Source: an uncultured Pseudomonadota bacterium
GTDB taxonomy: Bacteria; Pseudomonadota; Gammaproteobacteria; Steroidobacterales; Steroidobacteraceae
NCBI GenBank assembly: GCA_903908265.1
Contig: CAIVRI010000171.1
Location: 1-35,717, forward strand
Direction: 5' to 3'
DNA length: 35,717 nucleotides
Of this stretch, positions 3,504 to 25,809 are shown piece after piece (within the stretch, counting starts at the first letter, position 1; every line of letters starts with the position of its first letter). The position numbers and the translations under genes were made by a program. The notes beneath the pieces are model-generated. The model did not search any database. It saw nothing but the letters and a program-made list of their open reading frames with translations, and was not told where the DNA came from.

Positions 3504-4862
3504 ATGTACGCCTACGATAAGCCCTTTGTTGTGAATCCCGAGGCCGGCCACGATTCGCTCGAGGCGAAGCGACCGCTTATGGATAACGGGCTGGATAGTC
3601 CGCATCCGGAACGCTACTACTCGCCGGAGTTCATGAAGCTCGAATGGCGCAAGCTTTGGCCGACCGTGTGGCTGCTGGCCGGCGTGACCTCTGATATTAA
3701 GGAAGAGGGTGACTACACGGTGTTTGACGTGGGGCACGAGTCCGTCGTGCTGGTGCGTCAGAAAGCGGGTGATATCCGAGCCTTCCACAACGTCTGCCCG
3801 CATCGTGGCAACAAGATCGCACTCAATGACTCTGGCAGCGTTGCGCGGTTTACCTGCGCGTTCCATGCTTGGCAGTTTTGTTTGGATGGCAAGCTCGAAT
3901 GCATCACCGACGAGGAGAGTTTTCATCCGGCGCTGATCGCGCATCGGCCGGGTCTTTCTGAAGTGCGGTGTGATTCGATTGGTGGTCTGATCTTCATCAA
4001 TCTCGACGGCAATGCACCGCCGCTGAAGGAATGGATCGGACTGCCGACCGGTTACCTTGAGAATTATCAAGTCGACCAGATGAATGTCGTGCGGCATGTG
4101 CGCACCGAATGGCACGGTAACTGGAAGGTAGGCGTGGATGCCTTCTACGAAACCTATCATCTGCCGCACATCCACCCGCAGACCCAGGGCGTGATGGAGG
4201 ATTACTCGCAGTATGATCTGTACCCGAATGGCTTCTCGCGCATGATCGTGCCGATTTGCACCAAGTCGCATCGGATCGAGGATCAGGACACCGTATCGCC
4301 AGACCTGATGTACATGATGCAGGAAGCGGGCATGGATCCTGCAGCCTATCAGGGCAGCGCGAAAGGTGTGCGCGTTGCTGTACAGCAGGCCAAGCGTGCC
4401 CGCGCCGAGCGCTTAGGGCTCGCGCATTACGCGAAGTTTCAGGATGGCCAGTTGACCGATAGTTGGGCGACCGGGTTGTTCCCGAACGTACAGATCGGCA
4501 TGCACCCGGAGGGCGTGTTCATCATGCGCTTCCTGCCGCACCCGACGGAGCCGGAGCGCTTCTACTACGACAACATCACCATGTTCCGGCACGTGGATGA
4601 CAAGGACTACTTCGTGCCGGGTTGGATGGGCTTGCCCAAGGACACGGACATCACCGGTGCGACGCGACCGGCTATTGAAAGTTATGACATCACGCAACGT
4701 GCGGATTTGGGCCCGGTCCTGAATCAGGACGTCGAGCTGGTGTCGGCGGTGCAGCGCGCCTCCAAGTCGAGTGGCTTCAAGGGCCCGCTATGGAGCGAGC
4801 AAGAGGTGCGCGTGCGCCACTTTCATCGCGAACTAGATCGTGTACTCGGGATTAAAAAATAG
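3504..4862 (+). CDS. Rieske aromatic ring-hydroxylating oxygenase, alpha subunit
   Basis: The 452-residue product has both hallmarks of ring-hydroxylating oxygenase large subunits. The Rieske [2Fe-2S] ligands follow C-x-H-x17-C-x2-H at about C98, H100, C118 and H121. The mononuclear iron site is in DAFYETYHLPHIH, with H219 and H224 as likely ligands and D212 as the electron-bridging acid. Such enzymes add one or two oxygen atoms to an aromatic or alicyclic substrate using NAD(P)H electrons delivered by a reductase or ferredoxin. No reductase, ferredoxin or classical beta subunit is adjacent; only a SnoaL/NTF2-fold protein at 8243 could play a beta-like role. Start ATG 3504 follows taggaag. 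It is probably the oxygen-activating step of the cluster. Confidence 0.92.
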   Translation: MYAYDKPFVVNPEAGHDSLEAKRPLMDNGLDSPHPERYYSPEFMKLEWRKLWPTVWLLAGVTSDIKEEGDYTVFDVGHESVVLVRQKAGDIRAFHNVCPHRGNKIALNDSGSVARFTCAFHAWQFCLDGKLECITDEESFHPALIAHRPGLSEVRCDSIGGLIFINLDGNAPPLKEWIGLPTGYLENYQVDQMNVVRHVRTEWHGNWKVGVDAFYETYHLPHIHPQTQGVMEDYSQYDLYPNGFSRMIVPICTKSHRIEDQDTVSPDLMYMMQEAGMDPAAYQGSAKGVRVAVQQAKRARAERLGLAHYAKFQDGQLTDSWATGLFPNVQIGMHPEGVFIMRFLPHPTEPERFYYDNITMFRHVDDKDYFVPGWMGLPKDTDITGATRPAIESYDITQRADLGPVLNQDVELVSAVQRASKSSGFKGPLWSEQEVRVRHFHRELDRVLGIKK

Positions 4863-4904
4863 ACCGATGGTCGCGCCAACGGCGTGACATCGAGGGGGGC
4901 GATG

Positions 4905-6770
4905 ATGAGGTTGACGGTACTAAAGCTATTGGTCGTGGCGATGCTGGGCGGCTCTACGGCACAGGCCGCCGCGCCGGCAGATCCGCGGATGCCTGTGACA
5001 GCAGGCCCTGGCGAAACGGTGTTCAAGGCCGCGTGTGCGCAATGTCATCTGGGTCAGGTGCCCAAGGCGCCGACGCAGGTATTCCTTGGCATGATGGAGC
5101 CAGAGGCGATTTACGCGGCGCTGACGACTGGCGTCATGCAAAGTCAGGCTGCGGCGTTGTCTGCGCAGGACAAACAGGCGGTTGCCGGATATTTGGGTGA
5201 CGCCAATCTGAGCAGTACGGGGCCAGCGCCCGCGGCGCCGAGTTGCAGCGGGGCTGCCGCGAATTTTGATTTGTCGCAACCGCCGGATGTGCGTAACTGG
5301 GGCGCGGATTTGGGTAACTCGCACTTTGTGCCGGCAGCAGCTGCAGGGCTTGCTGTGGCGGATGTGCCGAAGTTGAAATTGAAGTGGGCGTTCGCGTTCC
5401 CGGGCGCAATTCGGGCGCGCTCGCAGCCCTCCTTTGCGGGCGGTTCACTGTTTGTTGGTAGCCAGAACGGGACCGTGTACGCGTTGGACGCGGCGTCCGG
5501 CTGTGTACGCTGGACGTTCAAGGCCGGTGCCGAAGTGCGCACCGCCATTGCGGTGAGTACCTGGAAGGCGGGTGATCGGGCCGCCAAACCGCAGGTGTTC
5601 TTTGGCGATCTGGTGGGGCGCGCGTACTCGCTGGATGCACGTACCGGTCAACTCTTGTGGTCGCAGAAGCTGGAGGATCACCCCAGCACGACCCTCACGG
5701 GTGCGCCGACCTTCTATGGCGGACGGGTATATTTTCCGGTGTCCTCGTTGGAAGAGGCCATGGCGGATCCGAAGTACCCGTGCTGTACTTTCCGCGGATC
5801 GCTGGTTGCGCTGGCCGCAACGACCGGTCGGGTGATTTGGAAAACCTACACCATCGCTGAGAAGCCCCGTGCAGTGGGTCAGACGACCGTGGGCACGCCG
5901 ATCTTCGGCCCTTCCGGCGCGGCGATCTGGAACTCACCGACCATTGATCCGAAACGCCAACTGGTTTACGTCGGCACAGGCGACAACTACTCCGCCCATG
6001 CCACTACCCGGTCCGATGCGATCCTCGCTTTCGATCTGGCGACGGGCAAGATGCGTTGGTCGCTGCAGGGTTTCACGGACGATGTCTGGAATGTGGGCTG
6101 CATGCTGAAAAATGCGAACTGCCCGGAGCATGCAGGTCCGGACTTCGACATCGGTGCCGGTACGATGCTGGTGAAGACCAGTGCAGGCAAGGAGCGACTG
6201 TACGCGGGGCTCAAGAGCGGTGAGGTGCTGGCTGTCGATCCGCAGACGCATGACCGCGTGCTGTGGAGGCGTCGGTTAGGTCGCGGTAGTACGCAGGGCG
6301 GTATTCAGTTCGGGATGGCGTACGACGGCCTGCATGTCTACGCGCCCATCGCGGACCTCGGTCCAGTTGTGGATCCCAATTATCCCGGTGAGCCGCACCC
6401 GGGTATTTATGCGGTCGATCCGATGAACGGCGATTTGGTCTGGTCCCACCCGGCGCCGGATCGTTGCCACGGCGATAAGTTCTGCGATCCAGGCATCATC
6501 GCGGCCATTACCGCAATCCCTGGTGCCGTATTTGCCGGGCATATGGATGGCTCACTACGCGCCTATGCATCGCAGACCGGTGCGGCCCTGTGGGAGTACG
6601 ACACGCGCGCCGACGTCACTACGCTTTCGGGCGTCGTTGCGCACGGCGGCACGATCGGCGGCGCCGGCCCGGTGGTGTATGGCGGGAAGCTGTACGCCGT
6701 GTCCGGTTATGGGGCGTACTTTCATCTGCCGGGCAACGTGTTGTTGGCGTTCTCGGTGGACGGACGCTGA
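4905..6770 (+). CDS. Quinohaemoprotein (N-terminal cytochrome c + PQQ beta-propeller), polyvinyl-alcohol-dehydrogenase-like
   Basis: ATG 4905 is preferred over GTG 4884 or ATG 4902 because gagggggg lies at a better distance and a clean signal peptide follows (hydrophobic LKLLVVAMLGG, cleavage near AQA). The mature 621-residue protein begins with a class I cytochrome c domain, with haem motif CAQCH near residues 44-48 and a GVMQ segment offering an axial Met. A PQQ-type beta-propeller of repeated WxxDxxTG blades follows. A vicinal Cys-Cys pair near residues 293-294 (YPCCTFRG) is characteristic of PQQ alcohol dehydrogenases. The N-terminal rather than C-terminal cytochrome domain is the arrangement known for polyvinyl alcohol dehydrogenase. 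It probably oxidises a (secondary) alcohol in the periplasm and feeds electrons to the respiratory chain. No PQQ biosynthesis genes are in the window. Confidence 0.85.
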   Translation: MRLTVLKLLVVAMLGGSTAQAAAPADPRMPVTAGPGETVFKAACAQCHLGQVPKAPTQVFLGMMEPEAIYAALTTGVMQSQAAALSAQDKQAVAGYLGDANLSSTGPAPAAPSCSGAAANFDLSQPPDVRNWGADLGNSHFVPAAAAGLAVADVPKLKLKWAFAFPGAIRARSQPSFAGGSLFVGSQNGTVYALDAASGCVRWTFKAGAEVRTAIAVSTWKAGDRAAKPQVFFGDLVGRAYSLDARTGQLLWSQKLEDHPSTTLTGAPTFYGGRVYFPVSSLEEAMADPKYPCCTFRGSLVALAATTGRVIWKTYTIAEKPRAVGQTTVGTPIFGPSGAAIWNSPTIDPKRQLVYVGTGDNYSAHATTRSDAILAFDLATGKMRWSLQGFTDDVWNVGCMLKNANCPEHAGPDFDIGAGTMLVKTSAGKERLYAGLKSGEVLAVDPQTHDRVLWRRRLGRGSTQGGIQFGMAYDGLHVYAPIADLGPVVDPNYPGEPHPGIYAVDPMNGDLVWSHPAPDRCHGDKFCDPGIIAAITAIPGAVFAGHMDGSLRAYASQTGAALWEYDTRADVTTLSGVVAHGGTIGGAGPVVYGGKLYAVSGYGAYFHLPGNVLLAFSVDGR

Positions 6771-6774
6771 ACGC

Positions 6775-7308
6775 ATGGATCGCACGGCCCTAAGCCTGCC
6801 GCTTCGGGCCGTGCAGATTGCCTACTATGTCCCGGATCCGGTACTTGCCGCAGCAGAGTGCGCGCGGCGTTACGGTTGGGGGCCCTTCTATTTGCTCGAG
6901 CATGTGCCCCTCTCCAGCTGCCTTTACCGGGGTCGTGAGGCACCGTTTGATCACAGTTCGGCCTACGGTCAGGCCGGCGATCTAATGGTGGAGTTAATCA
7001 CGCAGCATGACGACGCGCCGTCGGTTGTGCGGGAGGCCTACGCGCGGGAGGCCTCTGGCCTGCATCACGTCGCGCACTTTGTGCCTGATCTTTCTGCTGC
7101 GTTGGCGCACTGCGTGCGCGAAGGCGGCGTCGTGGTGATGGATGCGTGTACTGCCGATGGCGTACGCTTTGTGATGGTGCAGATGCCCATGTTGGGTCAC
7201 TACTTGGAACTGTACGAGCCGTCGCCTGCATTGCGCCGCTTCTACGGTTACATCCGAAAAAAATCAATCGACTGGGATGGCGCTGCGCCATTACGGCGTT
7301 TCAGTTAA
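6775..7308 (+). CDS. VOC (glyoxalase/dioxygenase-fold) family protein
   Basis: This 177-residue protein starts at ATG 6775, four bases after the stop of the quinohaemoprotein gene. It shows the vicinal-oxygen-chelate pattern of two beta-alpha-beta-beta-beta units. One runs from AVQIAYYVPDP, and a second begins at LHHVAHFVPDL with a metal-ligand-type His, ending in LGHYLELYEP with a Glu. Family members include extradiol dioxygenases, glyoxalase I, methylmalonyl-CoA epimerases and isomerases. The short length and cluster context favour a lyase, isomerase or epimerase role on a pathway intermediate, but the reaction is not determinable here. Confidence 0.82.
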   Translation: MDRTALSLPLRAVQIAYYVPDPVLAAAECARRYGWGPFYLLEHVPLSSCLYRGREAPFDHSSAYGQAGDLMVELITQHDDAPSVVREAYAREASGLHHVAHFVPDLSAALAHCVREGGVVVMDACTADGVRFVMVQMPMLGHYLELYEPSPALRRFYGYIRKKSIDWDGAAPLRRFS

Positions 7309-7319
7309 GGGAGAACGCG

Positions 7320-8117
7320 ATGGGCAGACTGAACGGTAAGGTGGCGGTGGTGCTGGGCGCCGCGTCGCCCGGCAATATGGGGCAGGCCATGGCCCGCCGC
7401 TTCGCCGCTGAAGGCGCCCGTGTGCTGGTGGCCGGGCGTCATTCGTCTGAGCTGAACAAGTTGGCTGCAGAAATCGGTGGCACAGCGGCGTTGTGTGATA
7501 TCACCGCAAAAGCGCAAGTGGAAGCCTTGGCGAATTTGGCAGTAGCCACCTATGGCCGCATCGACATTGCGGTCAACTGTGCGGGCTGGGGTCTTATCGC
7601 CAAACTTCTCGACACCACGGAAGAAGAGTTAGATCGCATTACGGCCTTACAGTTCAAAGGCCCCTATTTTTTCTTCCAAGCCTTTGTCGGGCGCATGGCC
7701 CAGTCTGGTGGTGGATCCGTGATCACCATGACCTCGGCCTCGACCAAGGCCTTGCTGTGGCATCACGCCGCCTATATCGGGACGAAATCCGGCACCGATG
7801 CGGTGATGCGCTGCTTTGCCAATGAATTTGGTGTGAAGGGAGTGCGCGTCAATGCCATCGCGGCAGGCTTCACCGAAACGCCGATGACCGAAGCGGTGGC
7901 GCGGATGCCTGGGCTGGCCGACGCGTTCGTGAAAGAGTATCCGATGGGTCGGCTCGGAACGGTGGATGACGTGGCCAATGCGGCACTGTGGTTGGCTTCG
8001 GACGAGTGCTTTGTGACCGGGGAGGTCCTGCAAGTGAATGGTGGCCTGACGCTGCGCCGCAATCCATCCACGCGTGAGATCAATGCCAGTATGGCGGCGG
8101 CGCGTGCAGCGACTTGA
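7320..8117 (+). CDS. Classical SDR family oxidoreductase
   Basis: ATG 7320 is chosen because gggagaacgcg precedes it and the SDR fold begins immediately (GRLNGKVAVVLGAAS). The 265-residue product has a glycine-rich nucleotide site GAASPGNMGQA, an NCAG variant of NNAG, and an intact catalytic YIGTK (YxxxK) preceded by SAS. It ends with the usual VTGEVLQVNGG. It is therefore a catalytically complete alcohol/ketone dehydrogenase, unlike the SDR at 1955. It follows the VOC gene by 11 nt in the same transcription unit and probably interconverts a hydroxyl and an oxo group of a cluster intermediate. Confidence 0.9.
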   Translation: MGRLNGKVAVVLGAASPGNMGQAMARRFAAEGARVLVAGRHSSELNKLAAEIGGTAALCDITAKAQVEALANLAVATYGRIDIAVNCAGWGLIAKLLDTTEEELDRITALQFKGPYFFFQAFVGRMAQSGGGSVITMTSASTKALLWHHAAYIGTKSGTDAVMRCFANEFGVKGVRVNAIAAGFTETPMTEAVARMPGLADAFVKEYPMGRLGTVDDVANAALWLASDECFVTGEVLQVNGGLTLRRNPSTREINASMAAARAAT

Positions 8118-14050: not shown

Positions 14051-14947
14051 ATGTCCGCACGCAAGCCCGTTCGTTTCGCCGTCTTTCCCGTCGCGGGTCG
14101 TGGCACGCGCTTTCTGCCGGCGACCAAGGCCAGCCCGAAGGAGATGCTACCGATCGTCGACAAGCCGCTGATCCAATACGCGGCGGAAGAGGCGTTACAG
14201 GCCGGTGCGACCCAACTGGTCTTCGTTACCGGTAGTGCTAAGCGTGCGATTGAGGATCATTTCGATTCCGCCCCCGAGTTGGAAGCGGCACTGGCAGCGC
14301 AGGGCAAGACCGAACTGCTGGATGCGTTGCGTGGCATTGTGCCGGCAAACGCGACCTGTATTTACATCCGCCAGTCGGCACCGCTAGGCCTCGGTCATGC
14401 CGTCCTTTGCGCCCGATCGGTGGTCGGTGACGAGCCGTTTTTCGTGCATCTGGCGGATGATTTAATCGATGCCGAGGTGCCTTGCTTGCGGCAGATGGCC
14501 AATATCTACGATGAGCTGGGTGGCAGTGTGCTCGGCGTGCAAACGGTGGATGCCAAGGAGACCGACAAGTACGGCATTGTGGCCTCCGAGCCGATGACTG
14601 ATCGCCTCTCCAAGATCACTTCGATGGTTGAGAAGCCCAAGCCGGAAAATGCGCCGTCCAATCTGGCGGTCGTCGGTCGCTATCTGCTGACGCCCCGCAT
14701 CTTCGATAAGCTCCAGCACATCGGTCGTGGTGCCGGTGGGGAAATCCAGTTGACGGATGGTATTGCTGCGCTGCTCGCGGATGAGGCGGTCTACGCTTAT
14801 GCTTTTGAGGGCAAACGCTATGATTGCGGTAGCAAGCTCGGTTACCTTGAGGCAACGGTTGAGTACGGCCTCAAGCACCCGCAGTTGGGCGAGCCATTCG
14901 GGCAGTTGTTGGCTCGTTTGATAGTGGATCGCTTGCGCGATCGTTAA
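14051..14947 (+). CDS. galU: UTP-glucose-1-phosphate uridylyltransferase
   Basis: The 298-residue protein matches bacterial GalU in length and motifs. The nucleotide-binding signature [17 protein letters not shown] is followed by [11 protein letters not shown], then a FVHLADDLI metal/UTP site and the [12 protein letters not shown] substrate loop. It makes UDP-glucose from UTP and glucose-1-phosphate for LPS, capsule and trehalose or galactose metabolism. ATG 14051 follows ccggtggagccgcc. A TATCAT-like -10 is visible near 14021 but without a convincing -35. It stands alone between the yqj-like trio and the bufferin operon. Confidence 0.96.
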
Positions 14948-14963
14948 CGGGAAGGCGCCGCTG

Positions 14964-15014
14964 GCCGGTGTACGCCGGTGTGGATGCGCCGTTGTTGTCC
15001 GGACTATGATCCGG
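14964..15014 (+). promoter_or_regulatory. Candidate promoter/operator region of the bufferin operon
   Basis: Two direct copies of GCCGGTGT lie exactly 10 bp apart at 14964 and 14974, one helical turn. They are followed by an inverted repeat CCGGA-CTATGA-TCCGG at 14999-15014 that overlaps a TATGAT -10-like hexamer (15005-15010). The -35 match is poor, which would fit an activated or alternative-sigma promoter. Bufferin operons are known to be metal-stress induced in other bacteria. The repeats are seen; their role is inferred. Confidence 0.4.
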
Positions 15015-15038
15015 TTCGTTTTTCATTAGGAGATACGC

Positions 15039-15296
15039 ATGCAAAAGACCACGCGGACTGTGATTGCTCTTTCAAGCCTGCTGGCTGCCGGCATCGCATT
15101 GGCCCCGGTAGTGCAGGCTGCAGAGGCGCCGACCGAGAAGTGCTACGGCGTGGCCAAGGCCGGCAAGAATGACTGTGCAGGGGCCGGCCATGCCTGCGCC
15201 GGGCAGTCGTCGACGGCGTCGGGCAAAGAATGGCTCAAGGTGCCTGTGGGTACTTGTGAGCGTCTGGTCGGCGGTAGCCTGACCGCCGCAAAGTAA
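15039..15296 (+). CDS. bufA1: Bufferin-type RiPP precursor (DUF2282, BufA1-like)
   Basis: This 85-residue exported precursor has a signal peptide ending near VQA-A (residue 28) and a short mature part with exactly four cysteines at positions 35, 46, 53 and 73. They lie in the contexts KCYGVAKAGKNDC, HACAGQS and VGTCERL. This is the DUF2282 signature. In characterised bufferins the cysteines are modified by a multinuclear non-haem iron oxidase (BufB with BufC) to thiooxazole-type groups, and the periplasmic product chelates copper. ATG 15039 follows taggag. The next gene encodes the oxidase, so the operon assignment is strong. The modification state and metal of this homologue are inferred. 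Confidence 0.9.
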   Translation: MQKTTRTVIALSSLLAAGIALAPVVQAAEAPTEKCYGVAKAGKNDCAGAGHACAGQSSTASGKEWLKVPVGTCERLVGGSLTAAK

Positions 15297-15299
15297 GAT

Positions 15300-15322
15300 C
15301 TTGCGCGGATCTGCCGCGCAAG
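15300..15322 (+). other. Intercistronic hairpin between bufferin precursor and oxidase genes
   Basis: A perfect 9-bp GC-rich stem (CTTGCGCGG / CCGCGCAAG) with a 5-nt ATCTG loop begins 4 nt after the precursor stop. No U-run follows (the next bases are GATGGGG), so it is more likely a 3'-end stabiliser or partial attenuator that keeps precursor mRNA above enzyme mRNA. It also covers the TTG at 15301, one candidate start of the oxidase. Confidence 0.6.
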
Positions 15323-16173
15323 GATGGGGAGCGCAAGCCCTGCCGGTGCAGACCGGTATCGGCTTGCGCGCGTTGCACCACGAGTCTTTACTCGAGTCTA
15401 GGGCGGCCGTGGGCTGGCTCGAAGCGCATAGCGAAAATTACTTCGCCGAGGGCGGCTCGCAACCGGCCGCGTTGGAGCGCTTGCGCGCCCACTACCCCAT
15501 CGCTTTGCACGGGGTGGGACTGTCGTTGGGGTCAGTCGACCCGCTCTCATTACATCATTTGACGCAACTCGCCCGCGTCGTCGAGCGCTTCGAGCCGGTC
15601 TTGGTATCGGAGCACCTCGCCTTCGGTGCGGTGGCGGGTGTGCATTACAACGATCTGTTGCCGCTGCCCTATACGCGCGAGTGCGTCGATCATTTGGTGG
15701 CTCGGATCGGTCAGGTGCAGGATCGCTTGCAGCGACCGATACTGGTGGAAAATGCGTCGTGTTATCTACGGTATCGCGCCGATGAGATGACCGAGGTGGA
15801 GTTCATCACGGCGGTAGCCAGGCGCGCGGGTTGTGGCGTGTTGCTCGACGTGAACAATATTTATGTGAATGCCCGCAATCACGGTTTGGATGCGCAAGCC
15901 TATATTGCATCGATGCCGGTCGGCTTGGTCGGTGAGATTCATCTGGCCGGGCACAGTGTCAATGTGCACGAGGGACACGAAATCCTCATCGATACGCATA
16001 TCGGCGCGCCGTGTCCTGCGGTTCTGGCGTTGTATGTGCAGGCAGTGCAGCGCTTTGCGGGTGCGCCGACCTTGTTTGAGTGGGATACGGACGTGCCCCT
16101 CCTGGAGACTCTGGTCGCCGAAGCGCACCGCATTGACCGTGTGCGCGAGACACTCGATGTCCACGCTCGCTGA
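15301..16173 (+). CDS. bufB: Multinuclear non-haem iron-dependent oxidase (DUF692/MNIO), BufB-like
   Basis: This TIM-barrel protein of up to 290 residues has the DUF692 motif series: GIGLR, WLEAHSENYF, LHGVGLSLGS, VSEHLAF, VENASCYL, LLDVNNIYVNARNHG, EIHLAGHS and FEWDTDVP. The His, Asp and Glu residues are the expected iron ligands. Enzymes of this type (MbnB, BufB) oxidise cysteines of a RiPP precursor. The start is uncertain: TTG 15301 lies inside a perfect hairpin, while CTG 15340 and GTG 15346 lie after a ggatggggag ribosome-like site. The conserved fold begins at about 15355, so any of these would give a functional protein. The 3' end overlaps the next gene by 17 nt. Confidence 0.92.
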   Translation: MRGSAAQGWGAQALPVQTGIGLRALHHESLLESRAAVGWLEAHSENYFAEGGSQPAALERLRAHYPIALHGVGLSLGSVDPLSLHHLTQLARVVERFEPVLVSEHLAFGAVAGVHYNDLLPLPYTRECVDHLVARIGQVQDRLQRPILVENASCYLRYRADEMTEVEFITAVARRAGCGVLLDVNNIYVNARNHGLDAQAYIASMPVGLVGEIHLAGHSVNVHEGHEILIDTHIGAPCPAVLALYVQAVQRFAGAPTLFEWDTDVPLLETLVAEAHRIDRVRETLDVHAR

Positions 16174-16924
16174 ACTGCAGGACTCCTTTGCGCGCGCCTT
16201 AAGTGGCGATACGGCTGGTGCCGAGTCCTGGGTGTGCAGTGGGGGCGTAGCGGCGGTCAAACGACTGGCGATCTATCAGCACAACGTGGATGCGCTGCTG
16301 GCGAATTATTTGCGTGCGGCATTTCCTGCGGTCGCGCGTCTGGGCGGGGAGGACTATTTTGTCGGGCTGGCACACGCCTACCGGGTGGCGCACCCCTCGC
16401 GCAGTGGCGACCTGCAGAGGGTTGGCGCTGCATTTCCCGCCTTCCTCGCAGGACAGTTGCAGGACAGCCCCTATGCTTTTATGGCAGATGTAGCCCGCTT
16501 GGAGTGGGCCTACCAGGAGGCGTTGGTTGCCGCCGACGCACGCGTGTTCGATGTTGCGGCCTTTAGTGCCGTGGCTGCCGATCAACACGATGCGCTGGTC
16601 TTTGCGCTCGCGCCCTCGGTTCGGTGTGTGCAATCGGCCTATCCGACGCAAGCCATCTGGATGGCGAATCGGGTGGCGGGACGGGACACCGGTGCGACGC
16701 TCGACGACGGGGGGGAGTGTCTGCTCCTACATCGCGTCGGTGACGAGGTGCACGTGCGCCGGCTCGATCCCGGCGCAGCGGCGTTTGTGGGCGCGTTGGT
16801 CGCTGCGGCGAGCTTGGCGGACTGTATCGTCGCATTAGAGGCGGTAGACGCAGCGGCTGATCCGACCGCGTTGTTATTGCGCCTTATTCAGTGGGGCGTC
16901 ATCGACGGATTGGTAGGCGTGTGA
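16157..16924 (+). CDS. bufC: DUF2063 partner protein (BufC-like) of the bufferin oxidase
   Basis: ATG 16157 lies inside the 3' end of the oxidase gene (17-nt overlap), giving a 255-residue product that starts STLAELQDSFARAL. The N-terminal part has the DUF2063 pattern: VAAVKRLAIYQHNV, LRAAFPAVARLGGEDYF, a HPSRSGDLQ segment, then FLAGQL and DVARLEWAYQEAL. Although named as putative DNA-binding in family databases, DUF2063 proteins encoded beside DUF692 enzymes are the MbnC/BufC-type partners that bind the precursor leader and present it to the oxidase. No DoxX-like fourth gene (bufD) follows; the next gene is convergent. Confidence 0.9.
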   Translation: MSTLAELQDSFARALSGDTAGAESWVCSGGVAAVKRLAIYQHNVDALLANYLRAAFPAVARLGGEDYFVGLAHAYRVAHPSRSGDLQRVGAAFPAFLAGQLQDSPYAFMADVARLEWAYQEALVAADARVFDVAAFSAVAADQHDALVFALAPSVRCVQSAYPTQAIWMANRVAGRDTGATLDDGGECLLLHRVGDEVHVRRLDPGAAAFVGALVAAASLADCIVALEAVDAAADPTALLLRLIQWGVIDGLVGV

Positions 16925-17084: not shown

Positions 17085-19706
17085 TCAAGGATGCGTGTGG
17101 ATCCACGCATCCAGTATCGGTAGCAGTCGCGCGCGCTGCTCGAGCCGGATCTCGATTCCGAGTGCGGCCCGATCGGCATCGCGATGTTCGCGACCTTTGA
17201 GTTCAGTGGCAGCGAAGGCACGGATCTGTGCCGGCATGGTGGGGTCTACCGAGCGGGTCGGCAGGCTAGGGATATAGCGACTCCACGCAGGTCCATCGAC
17301 GAGAGTCCGCACTGCCGCCAGATGCGAGAGCGCAAAAGCCATCGTCTGATTCGGGTAGTGGGCAGCGACTTGGCGAATGATCTGCGGTGCGGTGGTCTTT
17401 GGTGGTTCATCGGACAGGGCGATGTCGAGCGCTTGCTGTGCGAGTGCCTTGTTGTGTACCGCACCGAGCACGGTGTACAGGTGGGCGCGCATGGCGGGAT
17501 CTTGTTCCACTCGGGCAGCCTGGTGCAGAGATTCAAACAGGGCGGCGTCGGCGCCGAGTGCCACCATGTAGTCGAGCAGGCGATGCAATTCCGTTGGCAC
17601 CAGCGTCGGATCCGTGGCCGCGCCTTGATAACGGCGGCGCGCTTCGGTCAGCGTGGCCGGGTCGTCGATATGGGCCAAGAGGGCGAGTACATCCTGACGT
17701 AGGCCTGCCTGCTGCATCGTTTCCTGCGGTTGTGGTGTCCAACCGATGCGGGCAGCCAGCGGGGCCACGAGCGCGTGTTCCCGGGCCCGGAAGGCGCCGA
17801 TGCCTGCGTCGCTTTCATCGTAGAGTTGATCTAACTGCTGCAGCGCCGAGATCATGCCGCGCCACAAAGGGGCTGGGGCCTCCACCGGGGTCGCGGCCAC
17901 CAGGCGCATCACGTCGGTTACGGGCGCTTGGCCGGTGAGTGCTAGCGCCAGACGGTCGAAGGTGAGGGCGAGGCGGTCGTTGACCGACAGGGCGTCACTG
18001 TGTGCCAACAGCGCCGTGAAACTCGCGGCATCGTAATCGACGCGGTAATAGCCATCGGCACCGACATTGATCAGCGCGGGGCCACAGCCGGGCAACGTGG
18101 CCGTGGCAGTCGGGCCGTGCAAGAGCAGACGCTGGGTGGGGCCACCTACCGTGGCGTAGGTCAGTGGGATTGGCCAGTGCCCTTTCTTTCGGCTATTAGG
18201 GCCCGAGCGATACTCATCCGCCGTGAAGTGCAGCGTGGTGGTGTTCTGCGTGCAGGTGGTTGCAACGTGCACCAGCGGTATGCCTGGCGCGTTCACGAAA
18301 GCGCGTGCGATGTCACTGATCGGGTGACTGGACACGGCATCGACCGCGGTCCAAAGGTCGTCGGAGGTGGTGTTGCCGTAGGCATGGGCGGCGATGTAGC
18401 GGCGCACGCCGGCCTGCCAGGTGTCGGCGCCGACGTACGTCTCGAGCATGCGTAGAACCGCATTGCCTTTCTGATAGGTGATGGAGTCAAAAGCCTCGTC
18501 GACGTCGCGTGCCGAGTGCAGGTGCTGCACGATGGGGTGCGTGGTGGATACGGCATCGACCGCCATGGCCGCCTCGCGCCCGTGTATTGCATTGGTAGCG
18601 GTCTCCCACTCCGGGTGCAGGCGTTCGGTGGCGCGGCCTTCCATCCACGAGGCAAACCCCTCGTTCAGCCATAGATCATCCCACCAGCGCATGGTGACGA
18701 GGTCACCAAACCATTGGTGTGCAATCTCGTGCGCGTCTACTTCGAAGATCCGCTCACGGTCACCTTGAGTGGCGAGTTTGGGATCCACCAACAGGGCGTG
18801 CTCGAAGGTAAAGATTGCGCCCCAGTTTTCCATGGCGCCGAAAAACTGGCTCTGGCCGGGTGCGGCGATGTTGTCGAGCTTGGGCAAGGGGAATGGCTTG
18901 TCGAACCAGCGCTCATAATCGATCAGTACCTCACGCGTGGCGTCGAGGGCAAACTGGGCCTCCGCGATTGCGCCGCGGCGTGTCACGACGCCGGCTTCCA
19001 AGCGTCCGGCGCTGACCGCACTGCTCGCCCGTTCAAAGTCGCCCACGCCGAGGAACAAGAGGTAGCTCGACATCGGCGGAGTCGCAGGGAAGTGCCAGCG
19101 CACGAGGCCATCGGCTTGTTCGTGCGTGCTGGCGACCGGTAGGTTGGAGACCGCGATCCGACCTTTGGGGACGAGCACATCGAGGGTGAAGGGGGCGCGG
19201 AAGGCCGGTTCGTCAAAGCACGGTAGGAAGCGGCGTGCGTCGTGGCTTTCAAATTGGGTGTACAGCGCTCGCTCACTGCTACCGCCGGCACTGGTGTAGT
19301 CCAGCGCAAAGAAGCCGGCGGCTTGCGTGCCGATCGGTCCGGTGTAATCGATGTCCAGTTGGTGCGGGCCTTTGCTGAGTGCGCGTGTCGCGGTGAAAGT
19401 GACGGACTCGTGCTCGGCATCCACGGTAGTGGTCAGACTTGCGGCGGCACCGATGCCCTCCAGGTGGGCCGACTGAAACGCAAGGCCATTGGCTTGCAGG
19501 GTGATCGAGCGGGTCGACTGCAGTACGTCGAGGTCGATGCGTACGTGGCCGCGAAAGCGCAACGCTGCCGGGTCCGGCGTGATGTCGAGGGTATAGGCGC
19601 TGGGGCGTATCGTGTGCGGCAATTCCGACGGCACCGGCATCGGCGCCGCCGTAGCCGCGACGCTCACGGCGGCGGCCAACACAGCCCAATTCTTGGAGAA
19701 ATGCAT
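17085..19706 (-). CDS. Exported M1 family zinc aminopeptidase
   Basis: The 873-residue protein has a signal peptide (VLAAAVSVAATAAP) and the complete M1 signature: the substrate-binding GAMEN motif near residue 289, and the zinc site HEIAHQWFGDLVT near residue 326 with the downstream glutamate in LWLNEGFASW. Its length and the ERAP1-like C-terminal helical domain fit the broad aminopeptidase N/puromycin-sensitive group. The signal peptide places it in the periplasm or outside the cell, where it would trim N-terminal residues from peptides for nutrition. ATG 19706 follows a gaggt site. It is transcribed toward the bufferin operon with a 160-bp convergent spacer that has no clear terminator. 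Confidence 0.93.
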   Translation of the reverse strand: MHFSKNWAVLAAAVSVAATAAPMPVPSELPHTIRPSAYTLDITPDPAALRFRGHVRIDLDVLQSTRSITLQANGLAFQSAHLEGIGAAASLTTTVDAEHESVTFTATRALSKGPHQLDIDYTGPIGTQAAGFFALDYTSAGGSSERALYTQFESHDARRFLPCFDEPAFRAPFTLDVLVPKGRIAVSNLPVASTHEQADGLVRWHFPATPPMSSYLLFLGVGDFERASSAVSAGRLEAGVVTRRGAIAEAQFALDATREVLIDYERWFDKPFPLPKLDNIAAPGQSQFFGAMENWGAIFTFEHALLVDPKLATQGDRERIFEVDAHEIAHQWFGDLVTMRWWDDLWLNEGFASWMEGRATERLHPEWETATNAIHGREAAMAVDAVSTTHPIVQHLHSARDVDEAFDSITYQKGNAVLRMLETYVGADTWQAGVRRYIAAHAYGNTTSDDLWTAVDAVSSHPISDIARAFVNAPGIPLVHVATTCTQNTTTLHFTADEYRSGPNSRKKGHWPIPLTYATVGGPTQRLLLHGPTATATLPGCGPALINVGADGYYRVDYDAASFTALLAHSDALSVNDRLALTFDRLALALTGQAPVTDVMRLVAATPVEAPAPLWRGMISALQQLDQLYDESDAGIGAFRAREHALVAPLAARIGWTPQPQETMQQAGLRQDVLALLAHIDDPATLTEARRRYQGAATDPTLVPTELHRLLDYMVALGADAALFESLHQAARVEQDPAMRAHLYTVLGAVHNKALAQQALDIALSDEPPKTTAPQIIRQVAAHYPNQTMAFALSHLAAVRTLVDGPAWSRYIPSLPTRSVDPTMPAQIRAFAATELKGREHRDADRAALGIEIRLEQRARLLPILDAWIHTHP

Positions 19707-23954: not shown

Positions 23955-24225
23955 GTCGCCGCCACAGGGTCGACGCGGTGGGCCAGGGGGAGGGCAGGCG
24001 GGCGGTGCATCACGGAAATCCGATAGGCTGACGGTGTGCAGTGTACCCGTCCGGCGCGTGTCGTGGACGGCGCGGGGCGGGTGTGGGCAGGACACGGCAG
24101 GCCACTGAAGAGCGCACGTGTGGGCGCTAATGGCTGCATTTGTGCATCAACACGGCAATTAGTCGGTGTACGTCGTGGCGGTGCGCTCAGCGAGCATGGG
24201 TGGCTATCGTATTGGGAGCGCTCGT

Positions 24226-25809
24226 ATGTCTGCCTTGATGCAATTGCTGCTGCTCTACGCATTGGTGACGGCCGTACATGGTATGGGCCTGCGTGCGGCA
24301 GGGGCCCCGCGCGCGTGTCTGCTGGCGTTGCCGTGGCGGGGCGTGCTGCTCAGCGCCCTTGCCGCGTTGGGCATTGCGCTTGCCGAGGCGGTGCTAAAGG
24401 TCTTGGGGCTTTCTGGGGGAGCGTCCTTCGTTTGTGCGCTGGCCGCTGCGCTGGCGGGGGTTTATGCCGCCGGATTAGCGGCGGTGGCGGAGTCGGGCGG
24501 TTCTGTACTGCGCCGGGGAGCGCAGGTGGCCGACACAGCGGACCGCGCTGCCGTGTCGGTGCTGCAGGGGATTGCGCGGTTATGGCGGGTGACGCGTGGG
24601 GAGGCTGCGCGCGTCGCCCCCCCGGAGGTGCCGGGTCTATCCATCGGCGGCATCGCCATTCCAGAAGCCGATGAGCCCAAGCATTTTAAATTCATCGGTA
24701 CCACCGGTACGGGCAAGAGCACGGCGATTCAGGCCTTGTTGGAGAAAGCGTTGGCGCGCGGCGATCGAGCCGTCATTGCCGACCCCGATGGCGGGTACTT
24801 GGCGCGGACCTACGAGCCGCGGCGCGGCGATCTCATTCTGAATCCGTTCGATGCGCGCAGTGGGGTCTGGCAGCCGTTTCAGGAACTGTACGCGCCACAC
24901 GACGCGCGTGAATTGGCGCGCGCCTTGATCGGTTCAGCCAGCGGGGAGGCGGCGGCGTGGCATGGTTATGCGGAGACCTTTTTGGCCGCATTGCTCGAGC
25001 GCCTCAAACTCTTGCCGCAGCCGACGGTAGACGAACTGTATCGCGCGCTCGCCACGGCCCCATTGACCGAGTTGCGGTTGATCTTGCAGGGCACCTCGGC
25101 GGCACCTCTGGTGGAGTCCGGCAACGAGCGTATGTTTGGCTCGGTGCGTTCGATTGCGATGAGTCGTCTGGCGGCCTTGCCGGTCATTCAGCGGCAAAGC
25201 GGCGTGCATTGCTCGGTGCGTCAGTGGGTGCGGGAGGGCTCTGGCGTGCTGTACCTGCCCTACAAGGCCGATCAGATCGCCACCTTGCGTCACTTGGTGT
25301 CGGCGTGGATGCGCCTCGCCATTTTTGAAACGATGGCGCTTGGTGAAGGGGATCGTCGGCTGTGGTTCGTGGTCGATGAACTCGATGCGCTCGGCGCGAT
25401 TGACGGCCTCAAGGATGCGCTGGCGCGCTTGCGTAAGTTTGGCGGCCGTTGCGTGCTGGGTTTTCAGTCGATTGCGCAGGTCAGTGGGACTTATGGCGAG
25501 GCGGATGCACGCACGATCGTGGAGAACTGCGCAACGACACTGATTCTGCGCACCTCCGCCTCAGAGGGGGGCGGGACCGCGCGGTTTGCCTCGCAACTGA
25601 TCGGGCAGCGTGAGGTGGAGCGCGTGCAGGAGACGCGCAGTCAGGGCGAGCGGGACGGGAGTGAGCGCGTCTCCCATGCCCGGCAGGTGGCGCTGGAGTT
25701 GGCGCTGTTGCCGGCTGAGATCGAGGCGTTGCCGGATCTGGAGGGTTACCTTAAGTTGGCCTCGAATCCGGTGTGGCGCCGGATTCGTCTGGCGCCACGG
25801 CCTCACTGA
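24226..25809 (+). CDS. VirD4/TraD-like DNA-translocation (type IV coupling) ATPase, stand-alone
   Basis: ATG 24226 follows gggag at a 7-nt spacing. The 527-residue protein begins with hydrophobic membrane segments in the first ~95 residues, followed by a RecA/FtsK-like motor. Walker A is GTTGTGKST near residues 158-166, then VIADPDGGYL, and Walker B LWFVVDELDAL is near residue 379, with LRKFGGRCVLGFQSIAQ after it. This order matches TraD/TrwB-type coupling proteins. No relaxase, mating-pair or other conjugation gene is in the window and the neighbours are chromosomal, so it is either a remnant of an integrated element or a domesticated DNA/protein pump. Codon use looks like that of its neighbours. 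Confidence 0.85.
   Translation: MSALMQLLLLYALVTAVHGMGLRAAGAPRACLLALPWRGVLLSALAALGIALAEAVLKVLGLSGGASFVCALAAALAGVYAAGLAAVAESGGSVLRRGAQVADTADRAAVSVLQGIARLWRVTRGEAARVAPPEVPGLSIGGIAIPEADEPKHFKFIGTTGTGKSTAIQALLEKALARGDRAVIADPDGGYLARTYEPRRGDLILNPFDARSGVWQPFQELYAPHDARELARALIGSASGEAAAWHGYAETFLAALLERLKLLPQPTVDELYRALATAPLTELRLILQGTSAAPLVESGNERMFGSVRSIAMSRLAALPVIQRQSGVHCSVRQWVREGSGVLYLPYKADQIATLRHLVSAWMRLAIFETMALGEGDRRLWFVVDELDALGAIDGLKDALARLRKFGGRCVLGFQSIAQVSGTYGEADARTIVENCATTLILRTSASEGGGTARFASQLIGQREVERVQETRSQGERDGSERVSHARQVALELALLPAEIEALPDLEGYLKLASNPVWRRIRLAPRPH

Follow-up and report, generated by a model that had tools for sequence, protein, structure and literature searches.

A compact, probable Buf1-type bufferin operon without DoxX in a gammaproteobacterial MAG

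Three closely packed plus-strand genes (15039-16924) raise the question of whether they encode a bufferin pathway, and whether the absence of the usual DoxX-like fourth gene, bufD, makes that pathway unusual. They lie in the stretch of 35,717 nt analysed here (the window), which is part of a 3.4 Mb genome that is 97.59% complete. An earlier note had read them as the core of a bufferin operon, consisting of a DUF2282 precursor, a DUF692 enzyme and a DUF2063 partner, and had proposed family searches as the check. These searches matched all three proteins. The Pfam E-values of 4e-20 for bufA, 4e-99 for bufB and 9e-19 for bufC exclude chance matches. The gene coordinates also bore out the setting between galU and an M1 peptidase gene. 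The span that the note had given, 14964-16924, ends correctly, but its start falls within the galU-bufA gap, as the genes begin only at 15039. The putative TTG start of bufB lies 4 nt past the bufA stop, and bufC overlaps bufB by 17 nt (Table 1). The genome holds one MNIO and one DUF2282 precursor, and the two adjoin. Elsewhere in the window, successive genes at 3504-8114 encode the alpha subunit of a Rieske ring-hydroxylating oxygenase, a protein that resembles PQQ dehydrogenases and has a cytochrome c domain, and a short-chain dehydrogenase, which suggests a catabolic cluster, and an isolated type IV coupling-protein gene (TrwB/TraD-like; PF10412, 342 bits) is found at 24166-25809.

Table 1. 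Coordinates of the operon, its flanking genes and the precursor features in the window
Feature	Position	Strand	Basis or remark
galU	14051-14947		Upstream of bufA; TIGR01099, 366 bits (cut-off 326.8)
galU-bufA gap, 91 nt	14948..15038	+	Holds the bufA ribosome-binding region and a terminator-like hairpin
bufA, Buf1 bufferin precursor, 85 aa	15039..15296	+	PF10048 (DUF2282)
Predicted Sec signal peptide, residues 1-27	15039..15119	+	Read by eye; V-Q-A precedes the probable cleavage site
Codon of Cys35, which would pair with Cys73 in a disulphide	15141..15143	+	Role by analogy with Buf1 (PMC12452194)
Codon of Cys46, a predicted site of thiooxazole formation	15174..15176	+	Role by analogy with Buf1 (PMC12452194)
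Codon of Cys53, a predicted site of thiooxazole formation	15195..15197	+	Role by analogy with Buf1 (PMC12452194)
Codon of Cys73, which would pair with Cys35 in a disulphide	15255..15257	+	Role by analogy with Buf1 (PMC12452194)
bufB, MNIO (DUF692) bufferin maturase, at most 290 aa	15301..16173	+	PF05114, NF050167, 3BWW
bufC, DUF2063 plus RRE-like partner (PME-type 1), 255 aa	16157..16924	+	PF09836, structure model, Foldseek
M1 peptidase gene	17085-19706	minus	PF01433; convergent, 160 nt past bufC

The precursor BufA matched DUF2282 with 71.9 bits against a cut-off of 22.4, and its cysteines stand at residues 35, 46, 53 and 73, just as the note had placed them. All four were invariant in 132 of 132 distinct aligned rows, although this invariance is not independent of the family definition, because the rows were picked by profile match. 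Read by eye, the N-terminus starts with Lys/Arg, continues with a hydrophobic stretch and ends in V-Q-A. Buf1 bufferins are defined by DUF2282 and four cysteines, of which the central two are modified and the outer two form a disulphide (PMC12452194). Among the NCBIfam models, there was no BufA1 match for BufA, and the BufA2 model NF050166 scored 32.4 bits, below its cut-off of 60. BufA is also unlike a Buf2 precursor in having four cysteines rather than the six-cysteine (Cys-Lys) arrangement, and its enzyme has Thr and not Asp at position 263. A sequence search of the PDB with BufA gave no match. Since the structure model of BufA was poor (pLDDT 67.7), it lends no structural support to the Cys35-Cys73 disulphide expected by analogy. 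At the position equivalent to residue 60 of the window protein (15216-15218), 115 of the 132 distinct rows have Asp. The window and its two closest relatives have Ala or Ser there, as well as a one-residue gap nearby, and further rows lack the Asp too.

BufB scored 331.6 bits with PF05114 (cut-off 25) and passed the NCBIfam bufferin-maturase model NF050167 (350 bits, cut-off 310), with 144.8 bits against 3BWW. It remained far under the NCBIfam cut-offs for MbnB (47.8 versus 325 bits), ChrH (45 versus 600) and ApyH (85.9 versus 400). Judged from the alignment with 3BWW, the putative iron-ligand and catalytic-base positions are kept. Residues 70, 105, 150, 183, 185, 214, 231, 233 and 260 were identical in 112 of 113 Buf1 rows, the remaining row having a gap, and in all 12 Buf2 rows, and D262 was kept in 111 of the 113 and in 12 of 12. 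N185, D231 and H233 would be the equivalents of N175, D242 and H244 in HvfB, whose replacement abolished activity (PMC13419390). By the same reasoning, D262 probably corresponds to D249 of FonB, and T263 to F250 of FonB and D251 of BufB2. At the F250 site, Buf2-type enzymes are described as having Asp, while the site is not conserved in DUF2282-type enzymes (PMC13097082). The Thr263 of the window enzyme therefore fits Buf1, since this position is T, S or A in most Buf1 rows (39, 33 and 21 of 113, respectively) versus D in 11 and G in one of the 12 Buf2 rows, matching the published contrast. On the BufB tree, the window enzyme grouped with those of its two closest relatives (support 100), among Buf1 enzymes. 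The putative start codon is TTG, and TTG, GTG and TTG occur across the three closest operons.

The third protein, BufC, matched PF09836 with 68 bits (cut-off 27.2), scored 44.8 bits with the NCBIfam HvfC model, below the cut-off of 142, and gave no match in a phmmer search against PDB sequences. Its structure was modelled with a pLDDT of 95.2 from 54 sequences and has two domains. Foldseek at E <= 0.001 returned three matches, 8hci_A and 8hi7_A (both TglI of TglHI) and 3dee (NGO1945), with query TM-scores of 0.61, 0.60 and 0.53, respectively. Domain placement in BufC differs from that in the matched structures, as the rmsd of 5-8 angstrom indicates. TglI and NGO1945 have been named as typical partner structures (PMC12452194), and the length of BufC agrees with the 250-260 aa or so of DUF2063-RRE partners (PME-type 1).

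The gene order, the four-cysteine precursor with its predicted signal peptide, the MNIO and the DUF2063 protein fit Buf1 as described in PMC12452194, which upholds the interpretation of the locus as a bufferin RiPP operon. It is highly probable that the locus is a three-gene Buf1-type operon for a copper-binding periplasmic peptide with two thiooxazoles. By homology with Caulobacter Buf1, fontiphorin and HvfA (PMC12452194, PMC13097082, PMC13419390), the signal peptide of BufA and the BufC protein would serve recognition of the precursor by BufBC. Acting as a complex with BufC, the iron enzyme BufB would then oxidise Cys46 and Cys53 to 5-thiooxazoles, with the loss of about 4 H per cysteine. 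BufA would be exported by Sec and trimmed near residue 27/28, the Cys35-Cys73 disulphide would form, and the product of ~5.7 kDa would bind excess copper in the periplasm, presumably to the benefit of the cell under copper stress. The calculated monoisotopic mass of the peptide from residue 28 onwards is 5690.77 Da without modification and would be 5680.69 Da with two thiooxazoles and one disulphide. DoxX would not be needed for this core activity. The earlier suggestion that the product is undescribed holds insofar as this homologue has never been purified, but there is no sign that the product is of another kind.

A close known counterpart is the Buf1 operon of Caulobacter vibrioides, CC3254-CC3257 (bufA1B1C1D1), in which DUF2282, DUF692 and DUF2063 genes follow each other in the same order as in the window (PMC3511200, PMC12452194). 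It differs in having a downstream DoxX gene and a neighbouring sigma-F/NrsF pair, whereas the window lacks DoxX and its genome has no NrsF match. Precursor-DUF692-DUF2063 units without DoxX, as in the window, have been described from other lineages, namely CC2907-CC2905 of Caulobacter (PMC3511200), with CC2907 annotated as DUF2282 in 2012 (PMC3511200), and Legionella H3 (lpg2253-2255; PMC5413113). A further minimal set of precursor, MNIO and PME1 is fonABC of Fontimonas thermophila (captophorins), which installs 5-thiooxazoles in E. coli (PMC13097082); its precursor is of the EGKCG repeat type, while that of the window is of the DUF2282 type.

Does the missing DoxX gene set the operon apart? 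A profile made from the DoxX proteins of related operons had no hit in the window, so the note was right that bufD is absent. The weight that it placed on this absence, however, did not hold. DoxX was tallied by profile at Buf1 places with adequate flanks, counting same-strand genes from -3.2 to +2.5 kb relative to the bufB stop. From 139 bufB places, 92 had enough flank and 71 of these followed a Buf1 precursor; 47 places with short flanks and the duplicates L115/L116 were left out. Fourteen of the 71, the window included, were without DoxX, in a sample that was not random but consisted of 80 loci picked by similarity to the window BufB together with DUF2282-hit loci and genus relatives. At least two of the 14 (L027, L032) have a more distant DoxX beside a second cluster. 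When DoxX presence and absence were placed on the BufB tree, at least 13 changes were counted over 90 rows. Because places without DoxX are this frequent and operons of three genes have already been published (PMC3511200, PMC5413113, PMC13097082), the description of the operon as lacking bufD is correct but not distinctive. Furthermore, since fonABC suffices for thiooxazoles in E. coli, as reported in PMC13097082, a missing DoxX should be no obstacle. The operon is a fresh, intact, DoxX-less example of a known system and not a new system.

The genome itself carries two DoxX genes elsewhere (C104 and C160), both on very long branches of the DoxX tree. Relocation of bufD to either place is unsupported, because C104 matched only 3 of 62 buf-linked DoxX proteins, weakly (29-33% identity), and C160 matched none at E 1e-3. 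Remnants of DoxX, DUF1611 and enolase genes were sought in the two short gaps by comparing translated pieces with the proteins of relatives, and beyond the galU and bufA ends only short matches of low significance were obtained, which do not warrant calling any of them a remnant.

DUF2282 was found in 82 of 200 genomes drawn from the family and in 3 of the 15 genomes of the genus, these being the window genome, G057 (locus L004) and G128 (locus L003). The G057 and G128 proteins are both 86% identical to BufA of the window, 79% and 74% to BufB, and 58% and 61% to BufC, respectively. Both operons have DoxX directly upstream of bufA, unlike the window. In G057, as in the window, galU and M1 flank the operon, but galU is separated from bufA by genes for a TonB receptor, MgtC/DUF4010 and DoxX, and bufC from M1 by DUF1611 and enolase-like genes. 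In G128, about 17 kb separate the M1 gene and the operon. G057 and G128 are closest to each other for galU, BufA and BufC, whereas window and G057 are closest for BufB. Since these identities disagree and the BufB tree leaves the trio unbranched, loss of DoxX in the window and its gain in the relatives are not separable.

The rest of the genus presents another picture. A single MNIO is encoded in 14 of the 15 genomes, with none in G023. Among the 11 MNIO loci outside Buf1 (L177-L187), a six-cysteine Buf2 precursor precedes the enzyme in eight (8 of 15 genomes overall), and no precursor was recognised beside it in the other three (L178, L183, L184); 5 of the 11 loci have an upstream DoxX. CC2907 of Caulobacter, mentioned above, is presumably the Buf2 precursor of later papers. 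On the BufB tree, the other MNIOs of the genus, including the three without a recognised precursor, form a separate Buf2 group (support 100). This separation of Buf1 and Buf2 enzymes indicates that enzyme and precursor changed together within the genus.

We also considered how the operon might be controlled. The galU-bufA gap must hold the promoter, unless there is read-through from galU. A hairpin with a T-run (hairpin 14999-15014; 14999-15018 with the T-run included) lies in this gap, and because it resembles a galU terminator, little room is left downstream for a bufA promoter. No sigma-70 match was found near the operon. The sigma-F pattern matched 16 times in the window, against 22.4 matches expected by chance, and not once in the galU-bufA gap. 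These searches, along with that for NrsF in the genome, thus identified no metal-responsive promoter or regulator. Between bufA and bufB, a 9-bp inverted repeat (15296-15325) spans the proposed TTG start, and only its 6-bp core is common to the two closest relatives. The folding z-scores of this hairpin in the three operons (-0.41, -0.48 and -3.64) are not exceptional in two of the three, and given these values a regulatory role is not claimed.

The promoter searches bear on the idea that the operon is decaying after DoxX loss and is poorly expressed or non-functional, as they recognised neither a sigma-70 nor a sigma-F-type promoter upstream, and DoxX is present upstream in both Buf1 relatives of the genus while missing here. 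Yet all three genes have unbroken reading frames, the active-site residues are conserved, BufA is as similar to both relatives as stated above, and DoxX is often absent from intact Buf1 loci, all of which makes decay barely credible. Only slightly less improbable, in our view, is a DUF692 protein that acts on some other substrate, instead of BufA or besides it, or that introduces a different modification, such as an oxazolone-thioamide. Some genomes do have several precursors per MNIO (PMC12452194), and 5TO and OxT have been confused in print (PMC13097082). Against this, the sole DUF2282 place of the genome is directly upstream of bufB, and the enzyme passes the bufferin-maturase cut-off while falling far under those for MbnB, ChrH and ApyH.

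A real bufferin cassette could also be directed not at copper but at another metal or at general stress, with gold, cadmium, chromate, mercury and oxidants as candidates. Responses to chromate and cadmium are described for homologues under sigma-F control (PMC3511200), and responses to gold and copper for gig homologues (PMC5413113). In addition, the clade of the window lacks the Asp that is frequent between Cys53 and Cys73. On the other hand, the Buf1 product that has been studied chelates copper and aids growth in copper excess (PMC12452194), and both the cysteines and the enzyme specificity site of the window are Buf1-like. We consider such a target unlikely, and copper remains the favoured ligand of the predicted peptide. 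The altered loop also invites a more specific proposal, namely that the window and its two same-genus relatives make up a small clade of divergent Buf1 bufferins, with a Cys53-Cys73 loop one residue shorter and without the usual Asp, in a genus that is mostly Buf2, and that the window version works without DoxX. Taken as a whole, this is a long shot. If it were true, and if the loop change shifted the metal or the amount bound, the clade would represent a subtype of bufferins adapted to a different metal or redox state. The genus would then be a natural experiment in which enzyme and precursor were swapped together.

As a Buf1 operon, the locus is one more compact member of a very large class, from a gammaproteobacterial MAG of freshwater type. 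It confirms that a conserved cassette can do without DoxX and leaves the picture of the class unchanged. Within the genus, the single MNIO is paired with either a four-cysteine Buf1 or a six-cysteine Buf2 precursor, and the residue at the specificity site shifts along with the precursor (T/S/A versus D). Such close Buf1/Buf2 pairs are modestly useful for probing which features of its substrate BufB recognises.
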